NCBI RefSeq assembly: GCF_000373905.1
Contig: NZ_KB892705.1
Coordinates: 4,166,478 to 4,230,477, forward strand
Source of the DNA: Mycobacterium sp. 155
GTDB lineage: Bacteria; Actinomycetota; Actinomycetes; Mycobacteriales; Mycobacteriaceae
Reading direction: 5' to 3'
DNA: 64,000 bases
Every line of letters starts with the position of its first letter. The first letter of the stretch is position 1. Under the pieces are notes generated by a model that was not told where the DNA came from, made no database searches, and saw only the letters and a program-made list of their open reading frames with translations. This document shows positions 13,035-47,869 of this stretch, in pieces. The position numbers and the translations under genes are program-made.

Positions 13035-13070
13035 CTCTCCGACAATGTAAAGCTCTCCGACAATGTAAAG
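13035..13070. repeat. Two perfect 18-bp tandem repeats
   Basis: The unit CTCTCCGACAATGTAAAG is present twice without spacer (13035-13052, 13053-13070), directly abutting the large hairpin at 13070-13108. It is AT-richer than its surroundings. On the minus strand it reads CTTTACATTGTCGGAGAG and follows the hairpin. Confidence 0.9.
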
Positions 13071-13365
13071 CGGGCGGCGTTCCGAACTATGTTCGGCGCG
13101 CCGCCCGCTAGCACGGATCCGGTTACCAAGCGTGCAGTATAGGTCGCGTGGGTGGCCTCGGCGTTCTTGTGATGCGCTGCGAATGCAACCTCACCCAAGA
13201 GGCCGTCGTATCCGTCCGCTTCTCGCAATTACGCAGGCCCGCAACACTTTTGCCTATTCCGCGGCGTGTGCTCCGCGTGGGTGCCGGGACCCGTGCTAGG
13301 GAGCCTGGTTCAGGAGATTTAGCCTTCTCTTCTGGCTATACCTTGGCCTCTCCAAGCTTCCGTGG
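13065..13365 (-). ncRNA. Ms1/MTS2823-like RNA (ends approximate)
   Basis: This stretch lies between the Rv3662c-like and Rv3661-like genes, the locus of the abundant RNA-polymerase-binding RNA Ms1 (M. smegmatis) or MTS2823 (M. tuberculosis), about 300 nt. The minus-strand sequence folds well. A 13-bp long-range helix pairs 13287-13299 with 13108-13120 (one G-U), hairpins lie at TAGCC/GGCTA (13320-13338) and CTTGG/CCAAG (13342-13356), and a terminator hairpin ends it at 13070. The G-U pair and the T-rich sequence after the hairpin favour the minus strand. The 5' end near 13365 is inferred from a weak promoter (TTGCTG, 17 bp, TACAAA). Confidence 0.65.
13070..13108 (-). terminator. Strong hairpin terminator
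   Basis: Arms GCGGGCGGCG (13070-13079) and CGCCGCCCGC (13099-13108) enclose a second stem CCGAAC/GTTCGG with a 3-base loop. On the minus strand the hairpin is followed by TTTACATT. It probably ends the Ms1-like RNA and can also stop rightward read-through from the Fic-like gene. Confidence 0.75.
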
Positions 13366-14477: not shown

Positions 14478-14573
14478 TACTCGGCTTATGCCGGGGTGTA
14501 TCAGCCCGACCCCCCGGGGCTGATACACGACGACCTCCGCCTCCTCCCCCCCTGGCGGGGGTCGTCTCTTTTT
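14478..14573 (+). ncRNA. 6C RNA (B11-like)
   Basis: Two adjacent hairpins define the Actinobacterial 6C family. Stem GTGTATCAGCCC/GGGCTGATACAC (14496-14507 with 14517-14528) has loop GACCCCCCG. The second stem, GACGACC-CCGCC with GGCGG-GGTCGTC (14529-14541 with 14554-14566), has a C7 loop and is followed by TCTTTTT, a Rho-independent terminator. A -10 TATAGT at 14466-14471 predicts a start near 14478 and a length of about 95 nt; B11 of M. tuberculosis is 93 nt and lies at the same locus. The C-rich loops are thought to pair with G-rich Shine-Dalgarno regions of target mRNAs. Confidence 0.92.
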
Positions 14574-36691: not shown

Positions 36692-38476
36692 ATGACCTAC
36701 GACGTCATCGTTCGCGACGGTCTGTGGTTCGACGGCACCGGCGCACCGCCACAGGTCCGAACGCTGGGTATCCGTAACGGCATCGTCGCGGCGGTGTCGA
36801 CGAAGCCGCTCGACGAGACCGACTGTCCCGAGGTGATCGACGCGGCCGGAAAGTGGGTTGTGCCCGGCTTCATCGATGTGCACACCCACTACGACGCCGA
36901 GGTCCTGCTCGACCCCGGCCTGCGGGAATCGGTGCGCCACGGCGTGACCACCGTGCTGCTGGGCATGTGTTCGCTGTCGACCGTCTACGCCGACAACGAG
37001 GACGCCGCCGACCTGTTCAGCCGCGTCGAGGCGGTGCCGCGCAAGTTCGTCCTAGGAGCGCTGGAACAGCACCGTAAGTGGACGAATCCGACCGAGTACA
37101 TCCATGCCATCGACGCGCTGCCGCTCGGTCCCAACGTCGCGTCCATGCTGGGGCATTCCGATCTGCGCGCCTCGGTGCTCGGCCTGGACCGCGCCACCAC
37201 CAGAAACGTGACCCCGACCGATGCCGAACTCGAGACCATGGCGGCCAAGCTCGGGGAGGCTCTTGAGGCAGGCATGCTCGGCATGTCGGGCATGGACGCC
37301 GCGATCGACAAACTCGACGGCGACCGGTTCCGGTCGCGTGCTCTGCCCTCGACATTCGCGACCTGGCGGGAACGCCGCAGGCTCATCAAGGTTCTGCGGG
37401 AGCATGGCCGGGTGTTGCAGAGCGCGCCCAACGTCGCCAAGGCGCAAGAGGCGCTGAACTTCTTCCTGGAGAGCAGCAGCTGGTTCGGCCGCCGCCGTGG
37501 CGTGCGGATGAGTCTGCTGGTTTCGGCCGACGCCAAGTCAGCGCCGGGCGCTGTGCATGTGCTCGGGCCGGGTACCCGGCTGCTCAACAGGATCCTGGCT
37601 GCCAAGGTGCGGTTTCAGCACCTGCCGGTGCCGTTCGAATTGTATTCGGACGGAATAGATCTGCCGGTGTTCGAGGAGTTCGGTGCCGGCACCGCCGCAC
37701 TGCACCTGCGTGATCAGTTGGAGCGCAACAAGCTGCTGGCCGATCCGGAGTACCGGCGCCGGTTCCACCGGTCGTTCGACCGCCGTCGGCTCGGTCCGAC
37801 GTTGTGGCACCGTGATTTCCACGACGCCACCATCGTCGAATGCCCCGATGCGACGCTGATCGGCAAGAGCTTCGGGCAGATCGCCGACGAGCGGGGCATC
37901 CACCCGCTCGACGCGTTCCTTGATGTATTAGTGAGCAACGGCGAAAGAAATGTGCGGTGGACCACCATCGTGGCCAACGCCCGGCCCAAGCAGCTCGACA
38001 AGCTGGCCAAGGAGCCGTCGGTGCACATGGGCTTCTCGGATGCCGGTGCGCACCTGCGCAATATGGCGTTCTACAACTACCCGCTGCGGCTGCTCAAGCG
38101 GGTTCGTGACGCGCAGCTGGCCGGGCGGCCGTTCCTGACCACGACGCGTGCCGTGCACCGGTTGACCGAGGAGGTGGCCGACTGGTTCGGTGTCGACGCC
38201 GGCACCCTGCGTCAGGGCGATCGCGCTGACTTCGTGGTGATCGACCCGGCCGGGCTCAATGACGAGGTGGACGCCTACCACGAGGAATCGGTACCGTTCT
38301 ACGGCGGCTTGAGCCGGATGGTCAACCGCAACGACGACGCGATCGTCGCGACGGCCGTCAACGGTGCCGTGGTATTCCGCAACGGCCAGTTCCGCGAAGG
38401 CTACGGCGACACCGTGAAGTCCGGCCGCTACCTGCGTGCCCCGGGCGCCGAACGACCTGTCGCGCAATCGGTCTGA
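36692..38476 (+). CDS. Amidohydrolase family 3 (N-acyl-D-amino-acid deacylase-like)
   Basis: The 594-residue protein has the metal ligands of the first strand in FIDVHTHYDAEV near residue 63. A later HMGFSDAGAHL carries the catalytic Asp, and a C-terminal beta sandwich (LRQGDRADFVVIDP) follows. This matches the D-aminoacylase/N-acyl-D-amino-acid deacylase branch of the amidohydrolase superfamily. The true substrate may be another N-acyl compound. It is followed 1 bp later by a TetR gene, presumably its regulator. Confidence 0.88.
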   Translation: MTYDVIVRDGLWFDGTGAPPQVRTLGIRNGIVAAVSTKPLDETDCPEVIDAAGKWVVPGFIDVHTHYDAEVLLDPGLRESVRHGVTTVLLGMCSLSTVYADNEDAADLFSRVEAVPRKFVLGALEQHRKWTNPTEYIHAIDALPLGPNVASMLGHSDLRASVLGLDRATTRNVTPTDAELETMAAKLGEALEAGMLGMSGMDAAIDKLDGDRFRSRALPSTFATWRERRRLIKVLREHGRVLQSAPNVAKAQEALNFFLESSSWFGRRRGVRMSLLVSADAKSAPGAVHVLGPGTRLLNRILAAKVRFQHLPVPFELYSDGIDLPVFEEFGAGTAALHLRDQLERNKLLADPEYRRRFHRSFDRRRLGPTLWHRDFHDATIVECPDATLIGKSFGQIADERGIHPLDAFLDVLVSNGERNVRWTTIVANARPKQLDKLAKEPSVHMGFSDAGAHLRNMAFYNYPLRLLKRVRDAQLAGRPFLTTTRAVHRLTEEVADWFGVDAGTLRQGDRADFVVIDPAGLNDEVDAYHEESVPFYGGLSRMVNRNDDAIVATAVNGAVVFRNGQFREGYGDTVKSGRYLRAPGAERPVAQSV

Positions 38477-38477
38477 G

Positions 38478-39062
38478 ATGGCCAGAACCCAGCAGCAGCG
38501 TCGCGAGGAGACCGTTGCCCGGCTCCTCGACGCAGGCATCGACACCATCGTCGAAGTGGGTTACGCACGCGCGTCGGCCTCGGTGATCGCCAAGCGGGCC
38601 AAGGTCTCCGACGGTGCGCTGTTCCGGCATTTTCCGACCATGAGCGACTTCATGGCGGCGACGGCTCACGAGGTGGCACGCCGTCAGCTTGAGCTGGGCA
38701 GCAAGTTGCTCGCGCAGATCCCCGCCGAACAACCGCCGTTGTATGCGGTGCTGACGATCCTGCGGGACATCGCGGGTAGCGACACCAACACCGTGTGGCA
38801 CGAGCTGATGGTGGCGGCCCGCACCGACGAAAAGCTGCGGGGCACACTGCAAACCGTGCTTGCCGAGTACGTCGAGAACATCTACCAAACCGCCAAGCTC
38901 GCGCCGGGGGCCGAGCAGATCCCCGAGGATGCGTTCGCCGCGGTGCTCGCCGTCGTACTCAACACCTTCGACGGTGCTGCCATTGTTCGCCGGGTATTGC
39001 CGCAACCCGAGCTCGAGGACTCCCGGATCACGCTGTTGACGGCGCTGCTCAGCCGTCAGTAG
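38478..39062 (+). CDS. TetR-family transcriptional regulator
   Basis: The start is ATG 38478, giving 194 residues. The N-terminal helix-turn-helix is ASASVIAKRAKVSDGALFRHFP, and the C-terminal half is a ligand-binding helical domain of no specific subgroup. It overlaps the tail of the amidohydrolase operon and converges on the DUF2304 gene with a 14-bp overlap of coding ends. The inverted repeat at 36659-36670 is its likeliest operator. Confidence 0.92.
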   Translation: MARTQQQRREETVARLLDAGIDTIVEVGYARASASVIAKRAKVSDGALFRHFPTMSDFMAATAHEVARRQLELGSKLLAQIPAEQPPLYAVLTILRDIAGSDTNTVWHELMVAARTDEKLRGTLQTVLAEYVENIYQTAKLAPGAEQIPEDAFAAVLAVVLNTFDGAAIVRRVLPQPELEDSRITLLTALLSRQ

Positions 39063-39390
39063 GCACTTGGGCGTTCTGCAACGCGACCGCGCGGGCCAGC
39101 CTGGCGTACTTGAGTTCGAGGTCTTTGAACCGCAGGTAGGTCGACAGTGTCGTGAACACAAACGCGATGATCAGCACGTACTCCATGAGGTCCGTACCAC
39201 GTTTGACGCCAAGCCAATTCGCGACGACCGTGGTGTCGTCGGGCCGCAGGATCGCGTAGATGCCCGCTATCACGAACAGTACGAAGCCGACCTTCACCCA
39301 CGCCTTCGACCGCGCGCTGCGGCGCGAGTTCAGCAGGTACATCAGCAGTGCCAGCACGGATCCGATCAGCAGCGCCTGCATCCAGTTCAC
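39049..39390 (-). CDS. DUF2304 membrane protein (Rv3632-like)
   Basis: The start is GTG 39390, overlapping the ppgS stop by 4 bp; 113 residues. Three membrane helices (ALLIGSVLALLMYLL; VGFVLFVIAGIYAIL; MEYVLIIAFVFTTLSTYL) are followed by a C-terminal coiled segment FKDLELKYARLARAVALQNA. DUF2304 proteins accompany polyprenol-phosphate glycosyltransferases; in M. tuberculosis Rv3632 enhances PpgS activity. The same partnership is expected here. Confidence 0.9.
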   Translation of the reverse strand: MNWMQALLIGSVLALLMYLLNSRRSARSKAWVKVGFVLFVIAGIYAILRPDDTTVVANWLGVKRGTDLMEYVLIIAFVFTTLSTYLRFKDLELKYARLARAVALQNAQVPTDG

Positions 39391-40073
39391 CGGGACAACC
39401 TCCTGCGTAACAGCCCGTCGAAGACGATGTTGACCCCGTTGAGCAGTGGCTGCCCCTTGGACTTCGAATAGTCGGTGTAGAGGATCTCCACCGGTTCTTC
39501 GGCCACCCGCCAATGCTTTTCGTGTGCCATGGCGATGAACTCCCCGGCATGGCTCATGCCGTTCATGGTGAGGTTCAGCTCGTCGGCGACCTTCTTGTCG
39601 AACACCCGCAGCCCGTTGTGAGCATCGGTTAGCCCGAGTGCACGGCTCTGCGGGCTCAGAGCCGCCGCGGCCCGCAGAATGATCCGCTTCAACGGCGGGG
39701 TCTGTGTGACCACACCGGCGAACCGCGTGCCGACCACCAGATCGACGTCGTCGGTGTCGAGCCGGTCGATCATCCGGATCACGTCTTTGACCTGGTGCTG
39801 ACCATCGGCGTCGAACGTGGCGAACACCCTGGCGCCGGGACGGCTGCGGGCGTACTCGACACCGGTCTGGATGGCCGCGCCCTGGCCGAGGTTCACCGGG
39901 TGGGGGACGACGTGCGCGCCGGCACGCAGTGCGGCGGCGGCCGTGTCGTCGCGGCTGCCGTCGTCGACGCAAACCACGTTGGGGAAGACCGAGCGAACGT
40001 CGGAGATGACGTCACCGATGATGGTCGCCTCGTTGAAGGCGGGAATGACGATCCAGACGTCGTGGTAGCGCAT
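39387..40073 (-). CDS. ppgS: Polyprenol-phosphate glycosyltransferase PpgS
   Basis: This GT2 enzyme (228 residues from ATG 40073; 232 from GTG 40085) has VIPAFNEATIIGDV, the nucleotide-sugar motif CVDDGSRDDT and the metal-binding FATFDADGQHQ. The M. tuberculosis orthologue Rv3631 transfers N-acetylgalactosamine to decaprenyl phosphate, feeding the galactosamine substituent of arabinogalactan. It lies 7-19 bp after the flippase-like gene and overlaps the DUF2304 partner, so the whole leftward chain from 46.7 kb is probably one transcript. Confidence 0.9.
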   Translation of the reverse strand: MRYHDVWIVIPAFNEATIIGDVISDVRSVFPNVVCVDDGSRDDTAAAALRAGAHVVPHPVNLGQGAAIQTGVEYARSRPGARVFATFDADGQHQVKDVIRMIDRLDTDDVDLVVGTRFAGVVTQTPPLKRIILRAAAALSPQSRALGLTDAHNGLRVFDKKVADELNLTMNGMSHAGEFIAMAHEKHWRVAEEPVEILYTDYSKSKGQPLLNGVNIVFDGLLRRRLSR

Positions 40074-40092: not shown

Positions 40093-41421
40093 CTACGCGG
40101 GTGGCACTGATGCCCGGCGCAGCGCGCCCAGGTGGACGGCGATTCCCACCAGCGGCGCACACAGCAGGGCGATCACCGTGCGGGTTTGCAGGCCTACCGG
40201 CAGCAGCAACAGCGCCACCGCGGCCACCGTGGCGATGATCCAGCCCGCCGCGTAGGCGCGGTGCAGCGCGGCCGCGACGGCTGCCGCGCCGGTGAGAGTC
40301 AGCATTGCGATCGCGACGGCGGCGGCGGTCAACCAGGCCAGCAGTGCGCCTTCGGCGCGGTATTCGGGACCGAAGGCCACCACCAGCAGCCACGGGCCGA
40401 GCAGCCCGGCGGCCAGCACCCCGATCGCGCCGAGTCCGGCCACCACGGCGGCCGGCGCCAGCAGGGCCCGCAACCGGGCGTCACGCTGGTCGACGAAGTG
40501 CGCGATCAGATTGCCCTGCATCGCGGTCAGCGGTACCAGCAGCGGAGCCCGGGTCAGCGTCACCGCCAGGATCACCACGCCGCCGGCCGCGCCCAGGTCC
40601 GCCGAGGTGGCCTTGAGCAGCACGGGGAAGCCCATCACCAGGATGGCGCTGGCGCCCGCGGCCGCGATCGAGTGCGCGGCACCACGCAGGAACGTCCCCG
40701 GGCTACCAGCGGTGACCAGTCGGGCGGCCAGCCGCGTCGCGGGTGAGGCGATCAGCAGGATCAGCCAGGCCACCGCACCGGCCACGGTGGCCCACAGGAA
40801 GCCGACCAGCTGCCAGCCCAGCACGACGGTCCCGGCCGCAACGGCGACCCGGATGGCGGCATCGGTGACCATCAGCGCCCCGTACTGTGACCAGCGGTTC
40901 ACCCCGGCCAGCATGCCGAGCAGGGTCGCGTGCATGCAGAACCCGGCCAGGCCCGCGCTGAGCAGCGCCACACTGAGCACGGGCGATTCGACGAAAACGT
41001 GTGGTGCCCACAGCGGCGAGGTGCCCGCGATCACCGCGGCGGCGACGACTCCCACCAGCGCGGCCACCCGCATGGGGTGCGTGCGGTGCCCCGGACCGAC
41101 GTCGGGGTTGAGCGATACCGCGCGGACCTCGCGGGTGGCCTCCTGCAGCAGGCCGTTGGCGGCCCCGGTGACCAGGCCGAACGCGCCCCAGAACACGCTG
41201 AACACCGAGAAACCTGCCGGTTCGAGGGCCCTGGCGGCCAGATACAGCACGGCGTAGCCGCACAGTGCGGTGATCGCGGTCGCCGCTCCGACGGTTGCGA
41301 CGCTGTGGCGCGTGACCGGGCCTGGCGATGAGCCGCTTGCGCGAAGAGAATCAGATGGCGATGAGCCGCTTGCGCGAAGAGAATCAAACGGCGATGAGCC
41401 GCTTGCGCCGCCGTCGGTCAC
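40093..41421 (-). CDS. MATE/Wzx-like polysaccharide flippase (Rv3630-like) with N-terminal repeats
   Basis: GTG 41421 overlaps the M1 peptidase stop (GTGA), giving 442 residues and about 12 membrane helices of the polysaccharide-transporter/MOP type (Rv3630 is similar). Residues about 5-33 consist of an 11-residue repeat GSSPSDSLRAS encoded by a 33-bp tandem repeat with atypical codons (TCT, CTT, GCA). No other start codon precedes the first membrane helix, so the repeat is very likely translated as a cytoplasmic tail. The gene is a candidate translocator of a lipid-linked sugar such as the PpgS product. Confidence 0.82.
   Translation of the reverse strand: MTDGGASGSSPFDSLRASGSSPSDSLRASGSSPGPVTRHSVATVGAATAITALCGYAVLYLAARALEPAGFSVFSVFWGAFGLVTGAANGLLQEATREVRAVSLNPDVGPGHRTHPMRVAALVGVVAAAVIAGTSPLWAPHVFVESPVLSVALLSAGLAGFCMHATLLGMLAGVNRWSQYGALMVTDAAIRVAVAAGTVVLGWQLVGFLWATVAGAVAWLILLIASPATRLAARLVTAGSPGTFLRGAAHSIAAAGASAILVMGFPVLLKATSADLGAAGGVVILAVTLTRAPLLVPLTAMQGNLIAHFVDQRDARLRALLAPAAVVAGLGAIGVLAAGLLGPWLLVVAFGPEYRAEGALLAWLTAAAVAIAMLTLTGAAAVAAALHRAYAAGWIIATVAAVALLLLPVGLQTRTVIALLCAPLVGIAVHLGALRRASVPPA
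41324..41407. repeat. 33-bp tandem repeat in the flippase gene
   Basis: GGCGATGAGCCGCTTGCGCG and the following 13 bases recur at 41324-41356 and 41357-41389, with a third partial copy at 41390-41407. The copies differ at three bases. The minus strand reads GSSPSDSLRAS or GSSPFDSLRAS in the flippase frame. Confidence 0.93.
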
Positions 41422-42767
41422 AGCGGCGGCAGGGCTGTCGAATAAAGCCAGGCCTGCCACAGCGGCTGCAACGACTCGTCGGCGTAGCGTGCGGCCAGCC
41501 CGGTGAAGTCGTCGGTGACCGCGGTGCTGTGCCGATACTTGGTCGTCCAATCCTGCAGCAGCGCAAAGAAATTCTTGTCGCCGATGCGGCTGCGCAGCAC
41601 ATGCAGGGTCAGGGCGCCGCGCTTGTACACCCGGTCGTCGAACATGTCCTTGGGCCCGGGATCGGACAACAGCAGATTCTGCGGCAGGTCGGCGAGGCCG
41701 CGGTGGTAGCGTGCGGCCCAATCGGCGGCGCTTGGGCCGCCGCTGTTCTCCGACCACAGCCATTCGGCGTAGCAGGCGAAGCCTTCGTGCAGCCAGATGT
41801 CACGCCAGTGCCGCGCGGTCACCGAATTGCCGAACCACTGGTGGGCCAATTCATGGGCGATGAGCCGCTCGGCGCCGCGATTTCCATCGCAGTGGTTGGC
41901 GCCGAAGATCGAAATACCTTGGGCCTCAAGAGGTATTTCCAGGTCGTCGTCGGTGATCACCACGGTGTAGCCGGTGGCCAGCGGGTATGGCCCGAACAGT
42001 TTGACGAACAACTTCATCATCTGGGGCTGCCGCGCGAAGTCGTGGTCGAAGTCACGCTTGAGCCGGGGCGGCAGTACCGCATGCATCGGCACGGGTGACT
42101 TGGACAGCCGGTAGCTCTCGTACATGCCGATCTGCAGCGTGATCAGGTAGCTCGAGGTCGGCTCGGCCTGCTCGTAGGTCCACACGGTGTGCCCGGCGCG
42201 TACTTTGCGGGAGACCAGCTCACCGTTGGCGATCGCGAGATATGGGCTGTCGGTGCTGATCTGGATGCGGTAGCTGGCCTTGGCGCTGGGATGGTCGTCG
42301 CAGGGAAACCAGGTGGCCGCGCCGTTGGGCTGCCCGGCCACCAGGGCGCCGTTGGACAGCTCCTCGAAACCGACCTCACCCCAATGGGTGTCGATGGGGC
42401 GCGGGTTGCCGCCGTAGCGCACGAAGACGGTCATTGCGGCGCCTGCGGGTAGTGGCGCGGCCAAGGTGATCAGCAGTTTTCCGCCCGAACAACGGAACTG
42501 GGCGGGTCTGCGTCCGTTCACCGAGACCCTCGACACGTTCATGGTGGGTGCGAGGTCGAGCGTGAACGTGCGCAGCTGGGCCAGGGTCACCGCGGTGATG
42601 GTGGCCGCACCGGCCAGCCGATTGGCCGAAACCTTGTATTCGAGGTCGAGTTCGTAGCGCGACACGCGGTAGCCGAAGTTGCCGTTGGCCGGCAGGTACG
42701 GGTCGATGACGGGAGCGGGGGATGCCTTCTTCACGGCTTTCTTGACCGTCTTGTCGGAGCGCGTCAC
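41418..42767 (-). CDS. M1-family zinc aminopeptidase
   Basis: The start is GTG 42767, overlapping the NRPS stop (GTGA); 449 residues. The zinc site is HELAHQWFGNS with the third ligand Glu in WLHEGFACYAEW, 18 residues on. The usual GAMEN exopeptidase motif is replaced by IPLEAQG, as in several actinobacterial members. No signal peptide is visible. In epsilon-poly-lysine producers a zinc aminopeptidase that degrades the polymer is associated with the synthase, so this protein could be a polymer-degrading or self-protection enzyme. The alternative is a general aminopeptidase. Confidence 0.88.
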   Translation of the reverse strand: MTRSDKTVKKAVKKASPAPVIDPYLPANGNFGYRVSRYELDLEYKVSANRLAGAATITAVTLAQLRTFTLDLAPTMNVSRVSVNGRRPAQFRCSGGKLLITLAAPLPAGAAMTVFVRYGGNPRPIDTHWGEVGFEELSNGALVAGQPNGAATWFPCDDHPSAKASYRIQISTDSPYLAIANGELVSRKVRAGHTVWTYEQAEPTSSYLITLQIGMYESYRLSKSPVPMHAVLPPRLKRDFDHDFARQPQMMKLFVKLFGPYPLATGYTVVITDDDLEIPLEAQGISIFGANHCDGNRGAERLIAHELAHQWFGNSVTARHWRDIWLHEGFACYAEWLWSENSGGPSAADWAARYHRGLADLPQNLLLSDPGPKDMFDDRVYKRGALTLHVLRSRIGDKNFFALLQDWTTKYRHSTAVTDDFTGLAARYADESLQPLWQAWLYSTALPPL

Positions 42768-45700
42768 GCGGCGGTGTCCTCGGGCTTCTTGGGGGTCTTC
42801 TCGGGAGCCGAGGCGACGCGCTTCTTGCCGAACAGGTTCCACGGCGCGATCGGGTTGCCCTGCCAGCGGGTCGAAGGGGGAACTTCATCGCCGCGCATCA
42901 CCAGTGAGCCGGGACCGACAGTGGCCCCGGCACCCAGCCGGGCCGCGGGCAGCGCCACGCAGTGCGGACCGAGCGTCGCGCCGTCCTCCAGCACGACGCT
43001 GTCCAACCGCATGATGCGGTCGTGGAACAGATGCGTCTGTACCACGCAACCGCGGTTCACCGTGGCCCCGGTGCCCAGGGTGACCAGATCGGCCTCGGGC
43101 AGCCAGTAGGTTTCGCACCACACGCCGCGGCCGATCGAGGCGCCGAGCCCGCGCAGCCACAGATTCATCACCGGGGTGCCGCTCGCGGCGCGGGCAAACC
43201 ACGGCGCCGCAACGGTTTCGACGAAGGTGTCCGACACCTCGTTGCGCCACACGAACGACGACCACAGCGGGTGTTCGACGGCACGGATCCGGCCGATCAC
43301 CAACCACTTCGCGATCACGGCGATGGCGCCGGCCACCGCACCGGCGGCCAGCAGCACCACACCGCTGGCCAGCGCGGTCCACAGATAGCCGATGCGGATC
43401 GCCGTGGCCTGCAGCGCGCCCAACACCGCGACACCGATCGCGAAGGTCACGATCACCGGGATGATGCGGCAGGTTTCCACAGTGCCGCGCATGATCTTGA
43501 GCCGGTTGGACGGATGGAACGTGAGCAGCGCGTCGGCCGCGGTTGGGTTGCGGCGCAGCCGGACCGGCGGGCTGCCCAGCCATGACGATCCCGCCTTGGC
43601 CTTGTGCGGGGCGGCGGACAGCACCGCCACCAGCCCGTCGTCGGGCACCTTGCGGCCGGGTTGGGTAATGCCCGAATTACCCAGGAAGGCCCGCTTGCCG
43701 ATGGTGGCCTTTGCGACGTGGATCCAGCCGCCGCCCAGCTCGTAGGACGCCACCATGGTGTCGTCGGCCAGGAATGCGCCGTCCTGCACCTCGGTGAACT
43801 TCGGGGTGAACAGGGCTGTCGAAATCTCGGTGTCCTTGCCCACTTTCGCGCCGAGCAACCGTAGCCACCACGGTGTCAGCAGGCTGGCGTAGATGGGGAA
43901 CAGATAGTTGCGGGCGGCGTCCATCAGCCGTTCGGTGGCCCATAGTTGCCAGCCGATCCGGCTGCGCACCGGGTGGTAGCCCTCGGTCAGGCGCAGCGAC
44001 AGCAGTCGCACGCCGATCACCGTCAGCGTGGCGTAGACCACCAGTGCGGCCAGTGCGGCTACCGGCGTCCACGCCAGTGCGGGCAGGATCGCCGCATGGG
44101 GGGACGCGGTGCCGCGGACACCCCAGCCGATCACGGCTAGCCCGACGCCCAGCGCGGCCAGCGGCAGGCTGCCCAGCAGGATCGAGGTCACGCCGTAGAC
44201 CGCCACCCACGCCGGGGCGCGGCCCGGCCGGTGGTCGGGCCATGGATGACGGGCCTTGCCGGACTTCACCGCAGGTGAGCCCCTCCAGAACTGCCCGTTC
44301 TTCACCTTGCCTATCACTGCGGAGCCGGGGGCCACGTCGGCGTTCTTGCCGACGGTAGCTCCGGGCAGCAGCGTGGTGCGTGCGCCGATGGTGGCGTCGT
44401 TGCCGATCGACACGGGCCCGACGTGGAACAGGTCGCCGTCGATCCAGTGCCCGGTCAGGTCCACCTCCGGCTCGACAGAGGCGCGGTGGCCGAGCTTGAG
44501 CATGCCGGTCACCGGGGGCGCCGAGTGCAGGTCGACGCCCTTGCCGACGTTGTTGCCCAGCGCCCGGGCGTAGTAGACCATCCACGGCGCGCCGGCCAGG
44601 TTCTCCGCACCGCTGGCGTCGGCCAGCCGTTCGGCGATCCAGACCCGCAGGTGCACGGCGCCGCCGCGGCGGTATGTGCCGGGTTCGAGCCCGGTTAACA
44701 GCATCCTCGCGAACAACACCGCGATGCCCATCCGGCCCACGGGCGTGATGAAGACGAGGAAGCCCGCCAGCAGCCACCACCAGTTCAGCGTCTTGGCCCA
44801 CGGCACGATCCCCGCGGCGGCAGCAATGTTGTTCAGCAACGCCAGCCACACCACCCACTGCACTCCGGTCAGGGTGGCCAGCGGCAGCGAAAGTCCTACC
44901 TGCGCGGCCTGGGTGAGCTCCGGTGTCGGCTTGACCACACGGGTTTCCACCCGCGGTGGCGGCTTGAGCTCATCGAGGTAGCCGGCCAGCGAACCCAGCC
45001 GCGGATGGTCGTAAAGGTCGGCGACGGTCACTTGCGGATAACGCTGCCGCAGCGCGGCCACCAGCTGAGCCGCCGACAGTGAGCCGCCGCCGAGTGCGAT
45101 GAAATCGGCTTCCGGGCCCTCGATCGCGGTGCCGAGGACATCGCGCCACAGTCCTGCCAGCCAGCCCAGGGTGCCGCCCAGGTCGGGGGTCTCCTGTTCG
45201 GTCTCGCCGGGCGGTGGCCACGGCAGGGCGTTGCGGTCCACCTTGCCCGACGTGCGGGTCGGTAACTCGTCGAGCAGCACCAGCCGGGGCACCAGCGCTG
45301 CGGGCAGCGCTTCCGCCAGCGTGGCACGGGCCGCCGCTAGGTCGAAGTCGGGATCGGTGCTGGCGACATAGCCGACCAGCAGTGGCGTGCCGCTGGCGGT
45401 CTTGCGTACCGCCGCCGCGCCGCCGCTCACGCCTGGCAGGTTGACCAGCGCGTTGTCCACCTCGCCCAGCTCGATGCGCCGGCCGCCGACCTTGACCTGA
45501 TCGTCGGCGCGGCCCTGGAAGTAGAGGCCGTCTTTCTCCAGACGCACCAGGTCGCCGCTGCGGTAGGCGCGGGTCCAGCCCAGCGTCGGCATGGCCGCAT
45601 ACTTCTCGGCGTCCTTCTCCGGGTCGAGGTAGCGGGCCAGCCCCACGCCACCGATCACCAGCTCGCCGACCTCACCGAAGGAAACCTGCGCACCCTGTGC

Positions 45701-46702
45701 GTCCACGACCGCCAGATCCCACCCCGGCAGTGGCAGGCCGATGCTGACCGGGCTCTGCCCGTCCAGTTTGGCTCCGCAGGCGACCACGGTGGCCTCGGTG
45801 GGCCCGTAGGTGTTCCACAGTTCACGGCCGTCGACCGCGAGGCGCTGCGCGAGTTCGGGCGGGCACGCCTCGCCGCCGAAGATCAACAGCCGTACCGCCT
45901 CAAGCGCCTCGGCGGGCCAGAGCGCCGCCAGCGTTGGCACGGTCGACACCACCGTGATGTCGCGGGAGACCAGCCACGGGCCCAGATCCATGCCGCTGCG
46001 GACCAGCGACCGGGGTGCGGGCACCAGGCATGCCCCGTGCCGCCAGGCCAGCCACATCTCCTCGCACGACGCGTCGAACGCAACCGACAGGCCGGCCAGC
46101 ACGCGGTCACCGGGCCCGATCAGGTTGTCCTGCAGGAACATCCGAGCCTCGGCGTCGACGAACGCGGCGGCGCTGCGGTGCGTCACCGCGACACCCTTCG
46201 GGGTTCCGGTCGAACCTGACGTGAAGATGATCCACGCGTCATCCCGGCCGAGCGGTGCCGCGGCGCGCCAGCCCCGCGACGAGCCGGCGCCGCGTACCAG
46301 GCCGGCTTCGGTGATCACGCCGACGACGTTGGCCTCGCCGAACACCAGTTGCGCGCGTTCGTCGGGATCGTCGGCGTCGACCGGCACGTAGGCCGCTCCG
46401 GCCGCCAGGGTGGCCAGGATCGCGACGTAGAGGGCATAGCTGCCCGACGGCATGCGGATCCCGATCCGGTCGCCGCGGCCGATGCCGCGCGCCGCGAGCC
46501 AGGAGACGCTGTCCTCGACGTCGGTGATCAGCTCGGCATAGGTGAGTTGTACCGAGCCGTCGTCGAGCGCCGGGGCGTCCGGGAACCGTCGCGCGGTGTC
46601 GTACAGGATGTCGACCAGCGTCCGCGGTTCGGGAGCCGCGGAGGAAAGCACGTATTGCGCAGGGATCGCATGCTTGCCCTGTGTTCCATCCGCAGCTGCC
46701 AC
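42764..46702 (-). CDS. Pls/PosA-type non-ribosomal peptide synthetase (poly-amino-acid synthase-like)
   Basis: The 1312-residue protein starts at GTG 46702. An adenylation domain (residues about 25-500; FTSGSTGTPKG, NTYGPTEATVV, RTSGKVDRNALP) is followed by a carrier domain (FIALGGGSLSAAQL). Three pairs of membrane helices (about 630-690, 850-910, 1085-1150) then alternate with three left-handed beta-helix/acyltransferase-like domains. This is the layout of epsilon-poly-L-lysine synthase Pls. Aligning the pocket by eye to GrsA gives D-A-E-T-I-G-T-V-V-K, which resembles lysine pockets. Product and polymer length are unknown. It is the first gene of the leftward chain. Confidence 0.88.
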   Translation of the reverse strand: MAAADGTQGKHAIPAQYVLSSAAPEPRTLVDILYDTARRFPDAPALDDGSVQLTYAELITDVEDSVSWLAARGIGRGDRIGIRMPSGSYALYVAILATLAAGAAYVPVDADDPDERAQLVFGEANVVGVITEAGLVRGAGSSRGWRAAAPLGRDDAWIIFTSGSTGTPKGVAVTHRSAAAFVDAEARMFLQDNLIGPGDRVLAGLSVAFDASCEEMWLAWRHGACLVPAPRSLVRSGMDLGPWLVSRDITVVSTVPTLAALWPAEALEAVRLLIFGGEACPPELAQRLAVDGRELWNTYGPTEATVVACGAKLDGQSPVSIGLPLPGWDLAVVDAQGAQVSFGEVGELVIGGVGLARYLDPEKDAEKYAAMPTLGWTRAYRSGDLVRLEKDGLYFQGRADDQVKVGGRRIELGEVDNALVNLPGVSGGAAAVRKTASGTPLLVGYVASTDPDFDLAAARATLAEALPAALVPRLVLLDELPTRTSGKVDRNALPWPPPGETEQETPDLGGTLGWLAGLWRDVLGTAIEGPEADFIALGGGSLSAAQLVAALRQRYPQVTVADLYDHPRLGSLAGYLDELKPPPRVETRVVKPTPELTQAAQVGLSLPLATLTGVQWVVWLALLNNIAAAAGIVPWAKTLNWWWLLAGFLVFITPVGRMGIAVLFARMLLTGLEPGTYRRGGAVHLRVWIAERLADASGAENLAGAPWMVYYARALGNNVGKGVDLHSAPPVTGMLKLGHRASVEPEVDLTGHWIDGDLFHVGPVSIGNDATIGARTTLLPGATVGKNADVAPGSAVIGKVKNGQFWRGSPAVKSGKARHPWPDHRPGRAPAWVAVYGVTSILLGSLPLAALGVGLAVIGWGVRGTASPHAAILPALAWTPVAALAALVVYATLTVIGVRLLSLRLTEGYHPVRSRIGWQLWATERLMDAARNYLFPIYASLLTPWWLRLLGAKVGKDTEISTALFTPKFTEVQDGAFLADDTMVASYELGGGWIHVAKATIGKRAFLGNSGITQPGRKVPDDGLVAVLSAAPHKAKAGSSWLGSPPVRLRRNPTAADALLTFHPSNRLKIMRGTVETCRIIPVIVTFAIGVAVLGALQATAIRIGYLWTALASGVVLLAAGAVAGAIAVIAKWLVIGRIRAVEHPLWSSFVWRNEVSDTFVETVAAPWFARAASGTPVMNLWLRGLGASIGRGVWCETYWLPEADLVTLGTGATVNRGCVVQTHLFHDRIMRLDSVVLEDGATLGPHCVALPAARLGAGATVGPGSLVMRGDEVPPSTRWQGNPIAPWNLFGKKRVASAPEKTPKKPEDTAA

Positions 46703-46764
46703 GAGTACAAACTACTAAGCCACGGTCCCGGCAGCCCGATGAAGCGCACGGCGTGGCACACTTG

Positions 46765-46900
46765 TCGGTGGAGGGGAGTATTCCTTCGCCACAGTGTCGT
46801 CATCACATCGGCTGAGAATGAAGTCGGTCGGTGCTGTGGACCCGCCCTCGCGGCGGGTGGAAGAGACCTCCGGCGTTTTTTGACGACCGGAGGATTCCCG
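46765..46900 (+). promoter_or_regulatory. yybP-ykoY manganese riboswitch upstream of terC
   Basis: The leader contains the conserved GGGGAGTA (46773-46780), GTCGTCATC (46797-46805), a GC-rich hairpin CCCGCC/GGCGGG, and the 3' element GGAAGAGACC, in the order of the yybP-ykoY class. The 3' CCTCC (46867-46871) can pair either with 5' GGAGG (46770-46774), closing the aptamer, or as CCTCCGG with CCGGAGG (46887-46893), which hides the terC Shine-Dalgarno. Metal binding would therefore switch translation on. Confidence 0.82.
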
Positions 46901-47869
46901 ATGCAGGTAACCCAACTCGAGTGGATCATCACGCTGACCGTGACGATCACCGTGCTGTTGTTCGACGTGATGGTGATCGGGCGCAGGCCCCATGAGCCGT
47001 CAACCCGCGAGACCGCGACGTATCTGTCGATCTACCTCGGCCTGGCCGTGGCGTTCGGGGTATGGGTGTGGTTCTTCCACGGCAGTCAGTTCGGGTTGGA
47101 GTTCTTCGCCGGGTGGCTCACCGAGTACAGCCTGTCGGTGGACAACCTGTTCATCTTCCTGATCATCATGGCGAGCTTCAAAGTGCCGAGGATCTACCAG
47201 CAGCAGGCCCTGCTCGTGGGCATCATCCTCGCGCTGATCTTCCGCGGCATCTTCATCGCGCTCGGCGCGGTGGCCATCGAGAAGTTCTCCTGGGTGTTCT
47301 ACATCTTCGGGGCGTTCCTGCTGTACACCGCGATCAACCTGCTCCGTGACACCGAGCACGATGACGACGCCGACAACGCCGTGGTGCGGTTCGCCCGGCG
47401 GCATCTGCGGACCACCGACCGCTGGGACGGGCTGCGGTTGTGGATCAAAGATGACGGGGCGAGATTGATGACCCCGATGTTCCTGGTCATCGTGGCGCTG
47501 GGAACCACCGACCTGCTTTTCGCGCTGGATTCCATACCTGCGATCTATGGCCTCACCCAACAGCCCTACCTGGTGTTCACCGCCAACGTGTTCGCGTTGA
47601 TGGGGCTGCGCCAGCTGTACTTCCTGCTCGGTGATCTGCTCAAGCGGCTGGTCTATCTGTCTCAGGGGCTGGCCGTCATCCTGTTCTTCATCGGTGTGAA
47701 GCTGGTGTTGCACGCTCTGCACGAGAACGAGCTGCCGTTCATCAACGGCGGTGAGCCGGTGCCGGTCCCGAACATCCCCACGCTGGTGAGTCTGGGCGTG
47801 ATCGTGGTGACGCTGACGATCACCACGGTGGCCAGCCTGTACAAGACTCGGGTGCGTGACCTCCGGTAA
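46901..47869 (+). CDS. TerC-family membrane protein (probable Mn(II) exporter)
   Basis: The 322-residue protein has about eight to nine membrane helices with the two TerC acidic motifs: SLSVDNLFIFLIIM near residue 78 and FALDSIPAIYGLT near 208. TerC/Alx proteins export or buffer manganese and help load metals onto exported proteins. The start ATG 46901 follows GGAGG, and that RBS is part of the riboswitch expression platform. It is divergent from the Pls-like operon. Confidence 0.93.
   Translation: MQVTQLEWIITLTVTITVLLFDVMVIGRRPHEPSTRETATYLSIYLGLAVAFGVWVWFFHGSQFGLEFFAGWLTEYSLSVDNLFIFLIIMASFKVPRIYQQQALLVGIILALIFRGIFIALGAVAIEKFSWVFYIFGAFLLYTAINLLRDTEHDDDADNAVVRFARRHLRTTDRWDGLRLWIKDDGARLMTPMFLVIVALGTTDLLFALDSIPAIYGLTQQPYLVFTANVFALMGLRQLYFLLGDLLKRLVYLSQGLAVILFFIGVKLVLHALHENELPFINGGEPVPVPNIPTLVSLGVIVVTLTITTVASLYKTRVRDLR

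Follow-up and report, generated by a model that had tools for sequence, protein, structure and literature searches.

A Pls-type synthetase and its overlapping M1 peptidase gene in mycobacteria, predicted to make and trim epsilon-poly-L-lysine

Operons that couple pls, the gene for the epsilon-poly-L-lysine (epsilon-PL) synthetase, to a peptidase gene have been published for Streptomyces albulus and Corynebacterium variabile (PMC9223678, PMC8117764). Nocardia and Rhodococcus also have published Pls homologues (PMC4035055, PMC8117764), and poly-lysine-type clusters have been described in 218 Nocardia genomes (PMC12153302). The C. variabile enzyme, 51% identical to Streptomyces Pls, makes epsilon-PL chains 26-35 residues long when expressed in S. 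coelicolor, while its expression in C. glutamicum gave no epsilon-PL; C. variabile itself produced no detectable epsilon-PL in culture, and its Pls protein was not detected (PMC8117764).

We analysed a related locus in a 64,000-nucleotide stretch of DNA from Mycobacterium sp. 155, referred to here as the window. An earlier, sequence-only reading of this DNA implied more novelty for the locus than the published pls-peptidase operons and Pls homologues leave it. Its statement that no polycationic homopolymer has been described from mycobacteria agrees with searches of open papers, where no mycobacterial epsilon-PL study was among the matches listed. C. variabile belongs to the same order as the organism of the window.

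The synthetase and its peptidase

The features of the locus are as follows.

39049..39390, - strand: DUF2304 membrane protein (PF10066, 98 bits), presumably Rv3632-like
39387..40073, - strand: PpgS, polyprenyl-phospho-N-acetylgalactosaminyl synthase (NF058614, 423.9 bits against a cut-off of 370)
40093..41421, - strand: MOP/MATE-fold membrane protein, putative lipid-linked sugar flippase (AlphaFold model against 3vvo, 4mlb and 9g9o WzxE)
41418..42767, - strand: M1 family zinc peptidase, GTG start (PF01433 and PF17900; HELAH-x18-E at residue 305)
42764..46702, - strand: Pls orthologue by sequence, 1312 residues, GTG start (TIGR02353; best PDB match 7wew; P0122; model)
46703..46897, no strand: divergent intergenic region of 195 bp from the Pls start to the TerC-type gene (gene coordinates)
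46898-47869, + strand: TerC-type gene, divergent from Pls

The synthetase, M1 peptidase and MOP genes are all on the - strand and keep the coordinates at which they were first read, and both junctions claimed for them, synthetase/M1 and M1/MOP, are exact GTGA overlaps in the sequence. The three genes are thus linked as had been proposed, but the chain does not end at the flippase: PpgS starts 19 bases beyond the flippase stop, and its junction with the DUF2304 gene is a third GTGA overlap. The 195-bp divergent region is likely to hold the operon promoter. In 22 of 41 mycobacterial loci a TerC gene lies divergent from Pls at a distance of no more than 1.5 kb, and no RNA families were found near the operon at gathering thresholds.

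The first protein had been read as a Pls-type synthetase of the form A-T-(TM pair-beta-helix)x3, and the profiles, alignment and model all agree. Its A domain (about residues 15-499), carrier domain (Ser541) and C-terminal domain (601-1288) match AMP-binding, carrier and TIGR02353 terminal-domain profiles, with a TIGR02353 score of 753.2 bits against a curated cut-off of 423.1. The model of residues 585-1312 (pLDDT 85.3, pTM 0.86) contains three units, each a helix pair and a beta-helix; by sequence, units 1 and 3 match solved hexapeptide enzymes with E down to about 1e-4, and the middle unit does so weakly (E 0.015). The best PDB match is 7wew, the epsilon-poly-L-lysine synthase A domain (622 bits). 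The protein P0122, listed as 'epsilon-poly-L-lysine synthase Pls [Streptomyces]' and sharing 99% identity with 7wew, aligns end to end with the window synthetase at 53.5% identity (694/1298 columns), 64.6% in the A domain and 48.5% in the C-terminal domain. Alignment with a characterised synthetase, which had been proposed as a check, therefore indicates orthology over the full length, C-terminal domain included. Judged by sequence, the 1312-residue protein is a Pls orthologue, and of the lysine enzyme itself. The M. smegmatis counterpart is 87% identical to it.

Its partner, read earlier as an M1 zinc aminopeptidase, is borne out by its zinc site, its overlap with Pls and a near-perfect co-occurrence. 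The HExxH-x18-E pattern is kept in all 87 aligned M1 relatives, and the GTG start of the gene shares 4 nt with the end of Pls, stop codon included. An M1 gene comes after Pls, in the same orientation, in 79 of 80 named loci, the remaining one reaching a contig end, and in all 12 class loci; Pls and M1 distances correlate with a rho of 0.927 (n=87 loci). The positional counterparts in the 12 class genomes are 46-55% identical to the window peptidase, which by analogy of position is itself the counterpart of PldII, the epsilon-PL-degrading enzyme of Streptomyces. Published work locates PldII outside the membrane, whereas the window peptidase has no obvious signal peptide in its sequence as judged by eye.

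Because the linked pair are close relatives of the epsilon-poly-lysine enzyme and a zinc peptidase, it seems likely that the mycobacteria carrying them make and trim such a polymer. The Pls orthologue is predicted to synthesise epsilon-linked poly-L-lysine at the membrane, and the stop-overlapping M1 peptidase to trim or clear it, with a probability that we put at about 0.78. It is improbable that the polymerising part has drifted, leaving either an inactive enzyme or one that attaches a single lysine or a few to an acceptor in the envelope, with no free homopolymer. Near-core conservation and adjoining wall-sugar genes would be odd for an antibiotic, and the C. variabile operon is silent, but against drift stand the 48.5% identity of the C-terminal domain to Streptomyces Pls, its 132 invariant positions in an alignment of 90 sequences, the intact three-unit model and the retained M1 partner.

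The flippase and the wall-sugar genes

The third protein matched no named-family profile in Pfam, NCBIfam or PHROGs. The 'MOP-type' label it had been given is nevertheless correct, as its model (pLDDT 86.2) matches MATE, WzxE and MurJ structures in Foldseek with E down to 1.3e-07 over about 440 columns. Among its solved relatives is WzxE, the lipid III flippase. The exact start of the gene is uncertain: the first 36 residues, rich in repeats, are disordered in the model (pLDDT < 50), and for 19 of 32 relatives the alignment begins no earlier than residue 24, although six relatives start at the same 4-base overlap.

The flippase had also been thought to export the polymer, and this we rejected as the main reading. 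The MOP gene occurs in 245 of 248 genomes (E <= 0.001) and is kept in 58 of the 61 without full Pls (E <= 1e-100), and in the window it runs into PpgS and DUF2304, so its connection to the polymer is probably one of neighbourhood only. A single export machine of synthetase, peptidase and MOP, with MOP carrying the polymer across the membrane, is consequently unlikely, despite the M1/MOP overlap and the 28 of 38 informative mycobacterial loci that have a MOP gene immediately behind M1; ten of the 28 have no PpgS match downstream (one of these at a contig end). The other ten of the 38 have Pls-M1 without an adjoining MOP, as do 35 of 39 loci in other genera, and the kinship with WzxE also speaks against it.

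PpgS and DUF2304 (Rv3631 and Rv3632) are described as arabinogalactan galactosamine genes (PMC5389812). They lie downstream of MOP in the window, and PpgS does so in the remaining 18 of the 28 mycobacterial loci where MOP follows M1. The flippase, PpgS and DUF2304 would most likely act in decorating arabinogalactan with galactosamine, as co-transcribed neighbours of the pair. The PpgS pathway and Pls occur separately: 57 of the 61 Pls-less genomes have PpgS and 61 of the 187 with Pls lack it, and we rejected a functional dependence of Pls on PpgS. Pls, PpgS or both are found in 244 of 248 genomes and neither in four (Fisher p = 2e-5, uncorrected for ancestry). A further-reaching and rather improbable reading is that in most mycobacteria, including M. 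smegmatis, epsilon-PL is a standing wall-associated polycation, the polymer and arabinogalactan galactosamine being alternative routes to positive charge on the envelope, with the amino sugar alone serving the Pls-less lineages.

Substrate and proposed function

The ten pocket residues of the window A domain, DAESIGTVVK, are identical to those of 7wew, the Streptomyces lysine enzyme, and recur in all 90 aligned rows (7wew, the window, the 76 named loci left of 80 once four fragments are set aside, and 12 class loci picked from 64). Motifs spanning eight of the ten positions are present in each of the 30 genus loci L004-L033, a set in which L004 is the genome of the window itself. Lysine-activating members carry Ala at the position of PosA Met218 (PMC10522769); the window synthetase has Ala211 there and so departs from the PosA pocket, DMEHNGTVSK, with its Met in second place. 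These residues predict the activated amino acid, and linkage and chain length are outside their scope. It is highly improbable that the polymer is built from a different diamino acid (ornithine, diaminobutyrate, diaminopropionate or beta-lysine): enzymes of that kind do belong to the family, and a mutant in the PosA pocket shifts preference (PMC10522769), but the lysine pocket is invariant across the 90 rows, PosA and the beta-lysine enzyme (DGESISVVNK) have differing pockets, C. variabile Pls shares 51% identity with Pls but 31-33% with the three other synthetases compared in that study (PMC8117764), and the window protein, compared with Pls alone, is 53.5% identical to it.

If the pair does make and trim poly-L-lysine, the A domain would activate L-lysine and load it onto Ser541 of the carrier, and the three membrane-embedded beta-helix units would link the lysine carboxylate to the epsilon-amine of the next lysine. 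Short polycations would result, perhaps comparable with the 26-35 residues of the Corynebacterium product (PMC8117764). Like PldII in published work, the peptidase, probably translationally coupled, may cap chain length or shield the cell. The near-core presence of Pls in the genus suggests a housekeeping role in the envelope over that of an occasional antibiotic, and this is the least certain step. As in C. variabile, where the same operon gave neither detectable epsilon-PL nor detectable Pls protein, mycobacterial pls may be silent.

Distribution and comparison with known systems

What is new here is the spread of the pair through the genus, the overlap of its genes and a tree that fits several losses. 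The synthetase is present in 187 of 248 sampled mycobacterial genomes, about three quarters, and 186 of these also have the peptidase; one genome has M1 alone and 60 have neither. The sole M1-only genome is 63% complete. The 4-nt Pls/M1 overlap is possible in all 40 mycobacterial loci holding both genes, and the neighbourhood survey that had been suggested thus finds synthetase-M1 pairs to be common. As 61 of the 248 genomes have no full Pls, the genus does not depend on it; M. tuberculosis is not known to carry it.

On a tree built from the MOP protein of 40 genomes, 20 with and 20 without Pls, hand-picked among the matches listed, the Pls pattern needs five changes, at least four of them forced by well-supported branches. 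One loss in one clade is therefore not supported. The tree fits several separate losses, although alone it cannot tell losses from gains. In one Pls-less genome, L138, no remnant of Pls or M1 above 50 bits was found in the 15 kb around MOP.

If the pair works as predicted, an antimicrobial from Streptomyces used as a food preservative would be a near-core mycobacterial product. The mycobacterial envelope has been studied for decades, and such a polymer is absent from the literature searched. Such a polycation on the cell surface would, if real, matter for the charge of the envelope, for competition and for how well cationic peptides are tolerated.

The delta-poly-L-ornithine synthetase PosA of Acinetobacter (PMC10522769) shares the A-T-terminal-domain architecture of the window synthetase and is a namesake of the Pls/PosA family, the name under which NCBI already lists such mycobacterial proteins. 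It differs in its ornithine pocket, and the paper on it nowhere uses the word 'peptidase'. The C. variabile pls-peptidase operon is of the same type as that of the window, and the study describing it (PMC8117764) makes no mention of mycobacteria (0 occurrences). The S. albulus pls-pldII pair has the same domain order, the same A-domain pocket, an adjacent M1-type peptidase and a start/stop overlap. The window locus differs from it in the 53.5% identity of its synthetase, in a product that is predicted, in the cell-wall sugar genes that follow downstream and in its presence across three quarters of the sampled genus.

A Pls orthologue at the head of five co-directional genes

The sequence-only reading had described a chain of three genes, in which the products of a synthetase, a peptidase and a flippase would make, trim and export or handle a polymer. 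The two GTGA overlaps linking these genes (synthetase/M1 and M1/MOP) are present, and the chain extends further than was claimed, to five co-directional genes with the addition of PpgS (polyprenyl-phospho-N-acetylgalactosaminyl synthase) and DUF2304, which are joined by a third exact GTGA overlap (39387-39390).

Genes of the chain and its divergent neighbour
46702-42764, - strand: synthetase (Pls), 1312 aa
42767-41418, - strand: M1 peptidase, 449 aa
41421-40093, - strand: membrane protein (MOP/flippase), 442 aa
40073-39387, - strand: PpgS
39390-39049, - strand: DUF2304
46898-47869, + strand: TerC/Alx-type membrane protein gene, divergent from the synthetase gene

The synthetase scores 753.2 bits against TIGR02353 (cut-off 423.1) and is the only protein of this genome above the cut-off. 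Its best-scoring solved relative is 7wew, the A domain of an epsilon-poly-L-lysine (epsilon-PL) synthase (622 bits). Alignment with a characterised Pls, proposed earlier as a check, upholds the assignment: identity to P0122, a full-length Streptomyces 'epsilon-poly-L-lysine synthase Pls' (99% to 7wew), is 53.5% over 1298 aligned residues (A domain 64.6%, T domain 49.3%, C-terminal domain 48.5%). The ten A-domain pocket residues read DAESIGTVVK in all 90 aligned rows, 7wew and the window included, at positions set from motifs and the available text of the PosA paper (PMC10522769) rather than from a structure of the window protein. The predicted model of the C-terminal domain has three TM pairs with one beta-helix each, and the closest folds among the solved matches listed are hexapeptide acyltransferases; no solved Pls C-terminal domain was among the structure matches listed. 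The TM-scores are low because most matches cover only about 140-240 columns. Judged by alignment, the window synthetase is a Pls orthologue.

The M1 protein carries the M1 N-terminal and peptidase Pfam domains, the zinc motif HELAH-x18-E and, in a conserved variant form (P-L/I/V-EAQ among the variants listed), the exopeptidase motif.

A TerC/Alx-type gene lies <1.5 kb from pls in 22 of the 41 mycobacterial loci compared, and a metal or pH link with the operon is possible. At 36692-39062, between DUF2304 and a galE-type gene, are an amidohydrolase-type gene, seen in only 6/41 mycobacterial loci (contig ends may account for some absences), and a TetR regulator. The window also holds the Ms1 small RNA (13062-13363, - strand; Rfam RF02566, 304 bits) and 6C RNA (14495-14570, + strand; RF01066).

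Distribution of the Pls-M1 pair

A survey of synthetase-M1 neighbourhoods in mycobacteria had also been proposed, and the pair proved common. The sample from the window's genus comprised 248 genomes. With Pls counted at E = 0 and M1 at E <= 1e-100, each was found in 187 of them, both together in 186 and neither in 60. G183, the sole genome with a full Pls match and no M1 orthologue, is a natural test of the need for the peptidase; G126, with M1 and no full Pls, is a genome 63% complete.

In the 80 named loci, which are the best 80 of at least 585 and hence a non-random sample, M1 lies downstream of Pls on the same strand in 79 (a contig ends in the remaining one), with a gap within 100 nt in 74 of the 79. 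Among the genera represented are Mycobacterium, Mycolicibacterium, Mycolicibacter, Rhodococcus, Nocardia, Tsukamurella, Williamsia, Kribbella and Dietzia. Forty-one loci were counted as mycobacterial, six of them taken in on 77-79% identity. The Pls stop and nearest in-frame M1 start overlap by exactly 4 nt in all 40 mycobacterial loci with M1, and in 15/39 loci of other genera. Five Tsukamurella and Williamsia loci (L068, L071, L074, L079, L084) have the M1 start about 570-2110 nt past the Pls stop and may hold another element in between.

Pls and M1 distances correlate (rho 0.927, 87 loci), and the pair is present in 12 of 12 hand-picked class genomes. A wider class sample (296 genomes, 18 from the window's own genus) gave a match to the 7wew A domain of >540 bits in 64 genomes, the next among the matches listed being 281 bits.

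On a tree of the MOP protein from 20 genomes without Pls and 20 with it, the presence of Pls requires five changes, at least four of them forced. Of the 20 rows without Pls, 13 cluster together (support 81/85) and the rest fall elsewhere. L138, one Pls-less locus, retains MOP, PpgS and DUF2304, with no Pls or M1 remnants above 50 bits.

The flippase and PpgS

By its structure model, the 442-aa protein has a MOP/MATE fold, and the lipid III flippase WzxE is among the matches. The MOP-type fold first proposed therefore stands, but the tie to the polymer is not supported: the protein occurs in 58 of the 61 genomes without full Pls (E <= 1e-100), and in 245/248 genus genomes at E <= 0.001. Three of the 41 mycobacterial loci are cut off too early to be informative; in 28 of the other 38 its gene comes directly after M1, and 18 of those 28 have PpgS within 3 kb. 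According to PMC5389812 (available text), Rv3631 and Rv3632 take part in forming the galactosamine substituent on arabinogalactan. Since MOP is kept without Pls, PpgS lies beside it and Rv3631/Rv3632 have this role, we read MOP-PpgS-DUF2304 as a cell-wall unit separate from pls-M1, here probably on a common transcript.

With PpgS scored present at E < 1e-50, 126 genus genomes have both Pls and PpgS, 61 Pls only, 57 PpgS only and four neither, two of these four (G005, G052) being <90% complete. The small number lacking both suggests that the two may be interchangeable sources of envelope charge; ancestry alone could also lie behind the shortage.

At the start of the flippase ORF (41324-41406), GCAAGCGGCTCATCGCC occurs three times with a spacing of 33 bases; this stretch is disordered in the model and absent from most relatives aligned. 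Seven mycobacterial loci (L040, L041, L042, L045, L049, L078, L104) have Pls-M1-MOP without PpgS; a distant galE-like gene (30-33% identity) lies between MOP and the membrane protein that elsewhere neighbours galE.

Relation to known systems

No mycobacterial epsilon-PL or Pls study was among the matches listed from the open literature (titles and abstract starts; subscription papers fall outside this scope), nor in the available text of PMC10522769, PMC4035055, PMC8117764, PMC9223678, PMC5389812, PMC9964534, PMC13291983 and PMC12153302; that of the PosA paper (PMC10522769) mentions mycobacteria once, in a GlmU reference. NCBI names for mycobacterial proteins already include Pls/PosA. As far as the available text goes, Pls has been predicted in Nocardia (PMC4035055) and poly-lysine-type clusters counted in 218 Nocardia genomes (PMC12153302), so broad occurrence in a sister genus is already in print. 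What is new is the near-core distribution of Pls in a much-studied genus, for which we found no report in the open literature.

The pocket of PosA, the Acinetobacter delta-poly-L-ornithine synthetase, is DMEHNGTVSK, in contrast to DAESIGTVVK in the window synthetase; Lys-type members have Ala at the position of PosA Met218 (PMC10522769, available text). In the accessible parts of the two reports on the operon, PldII, the epsilon-PL-degrading aminopeptidase of Streptomyces, is translationally coupled to pls and required for self-protection (PMC9223678), and C. variabile has a pls-peptidase operon whose synthetase, in S. coelicolor, made epsilon-PL chains 26-35 residues long, whereas no epsilon-PL was detected in the native host or in C. 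glutamicum given the C. variabile gene (PMC8117764). The operon type is therefore already known, and membership of the mycobacterial Pls, whose product and role are predictions, is strongly supported by the sequence comparisons.
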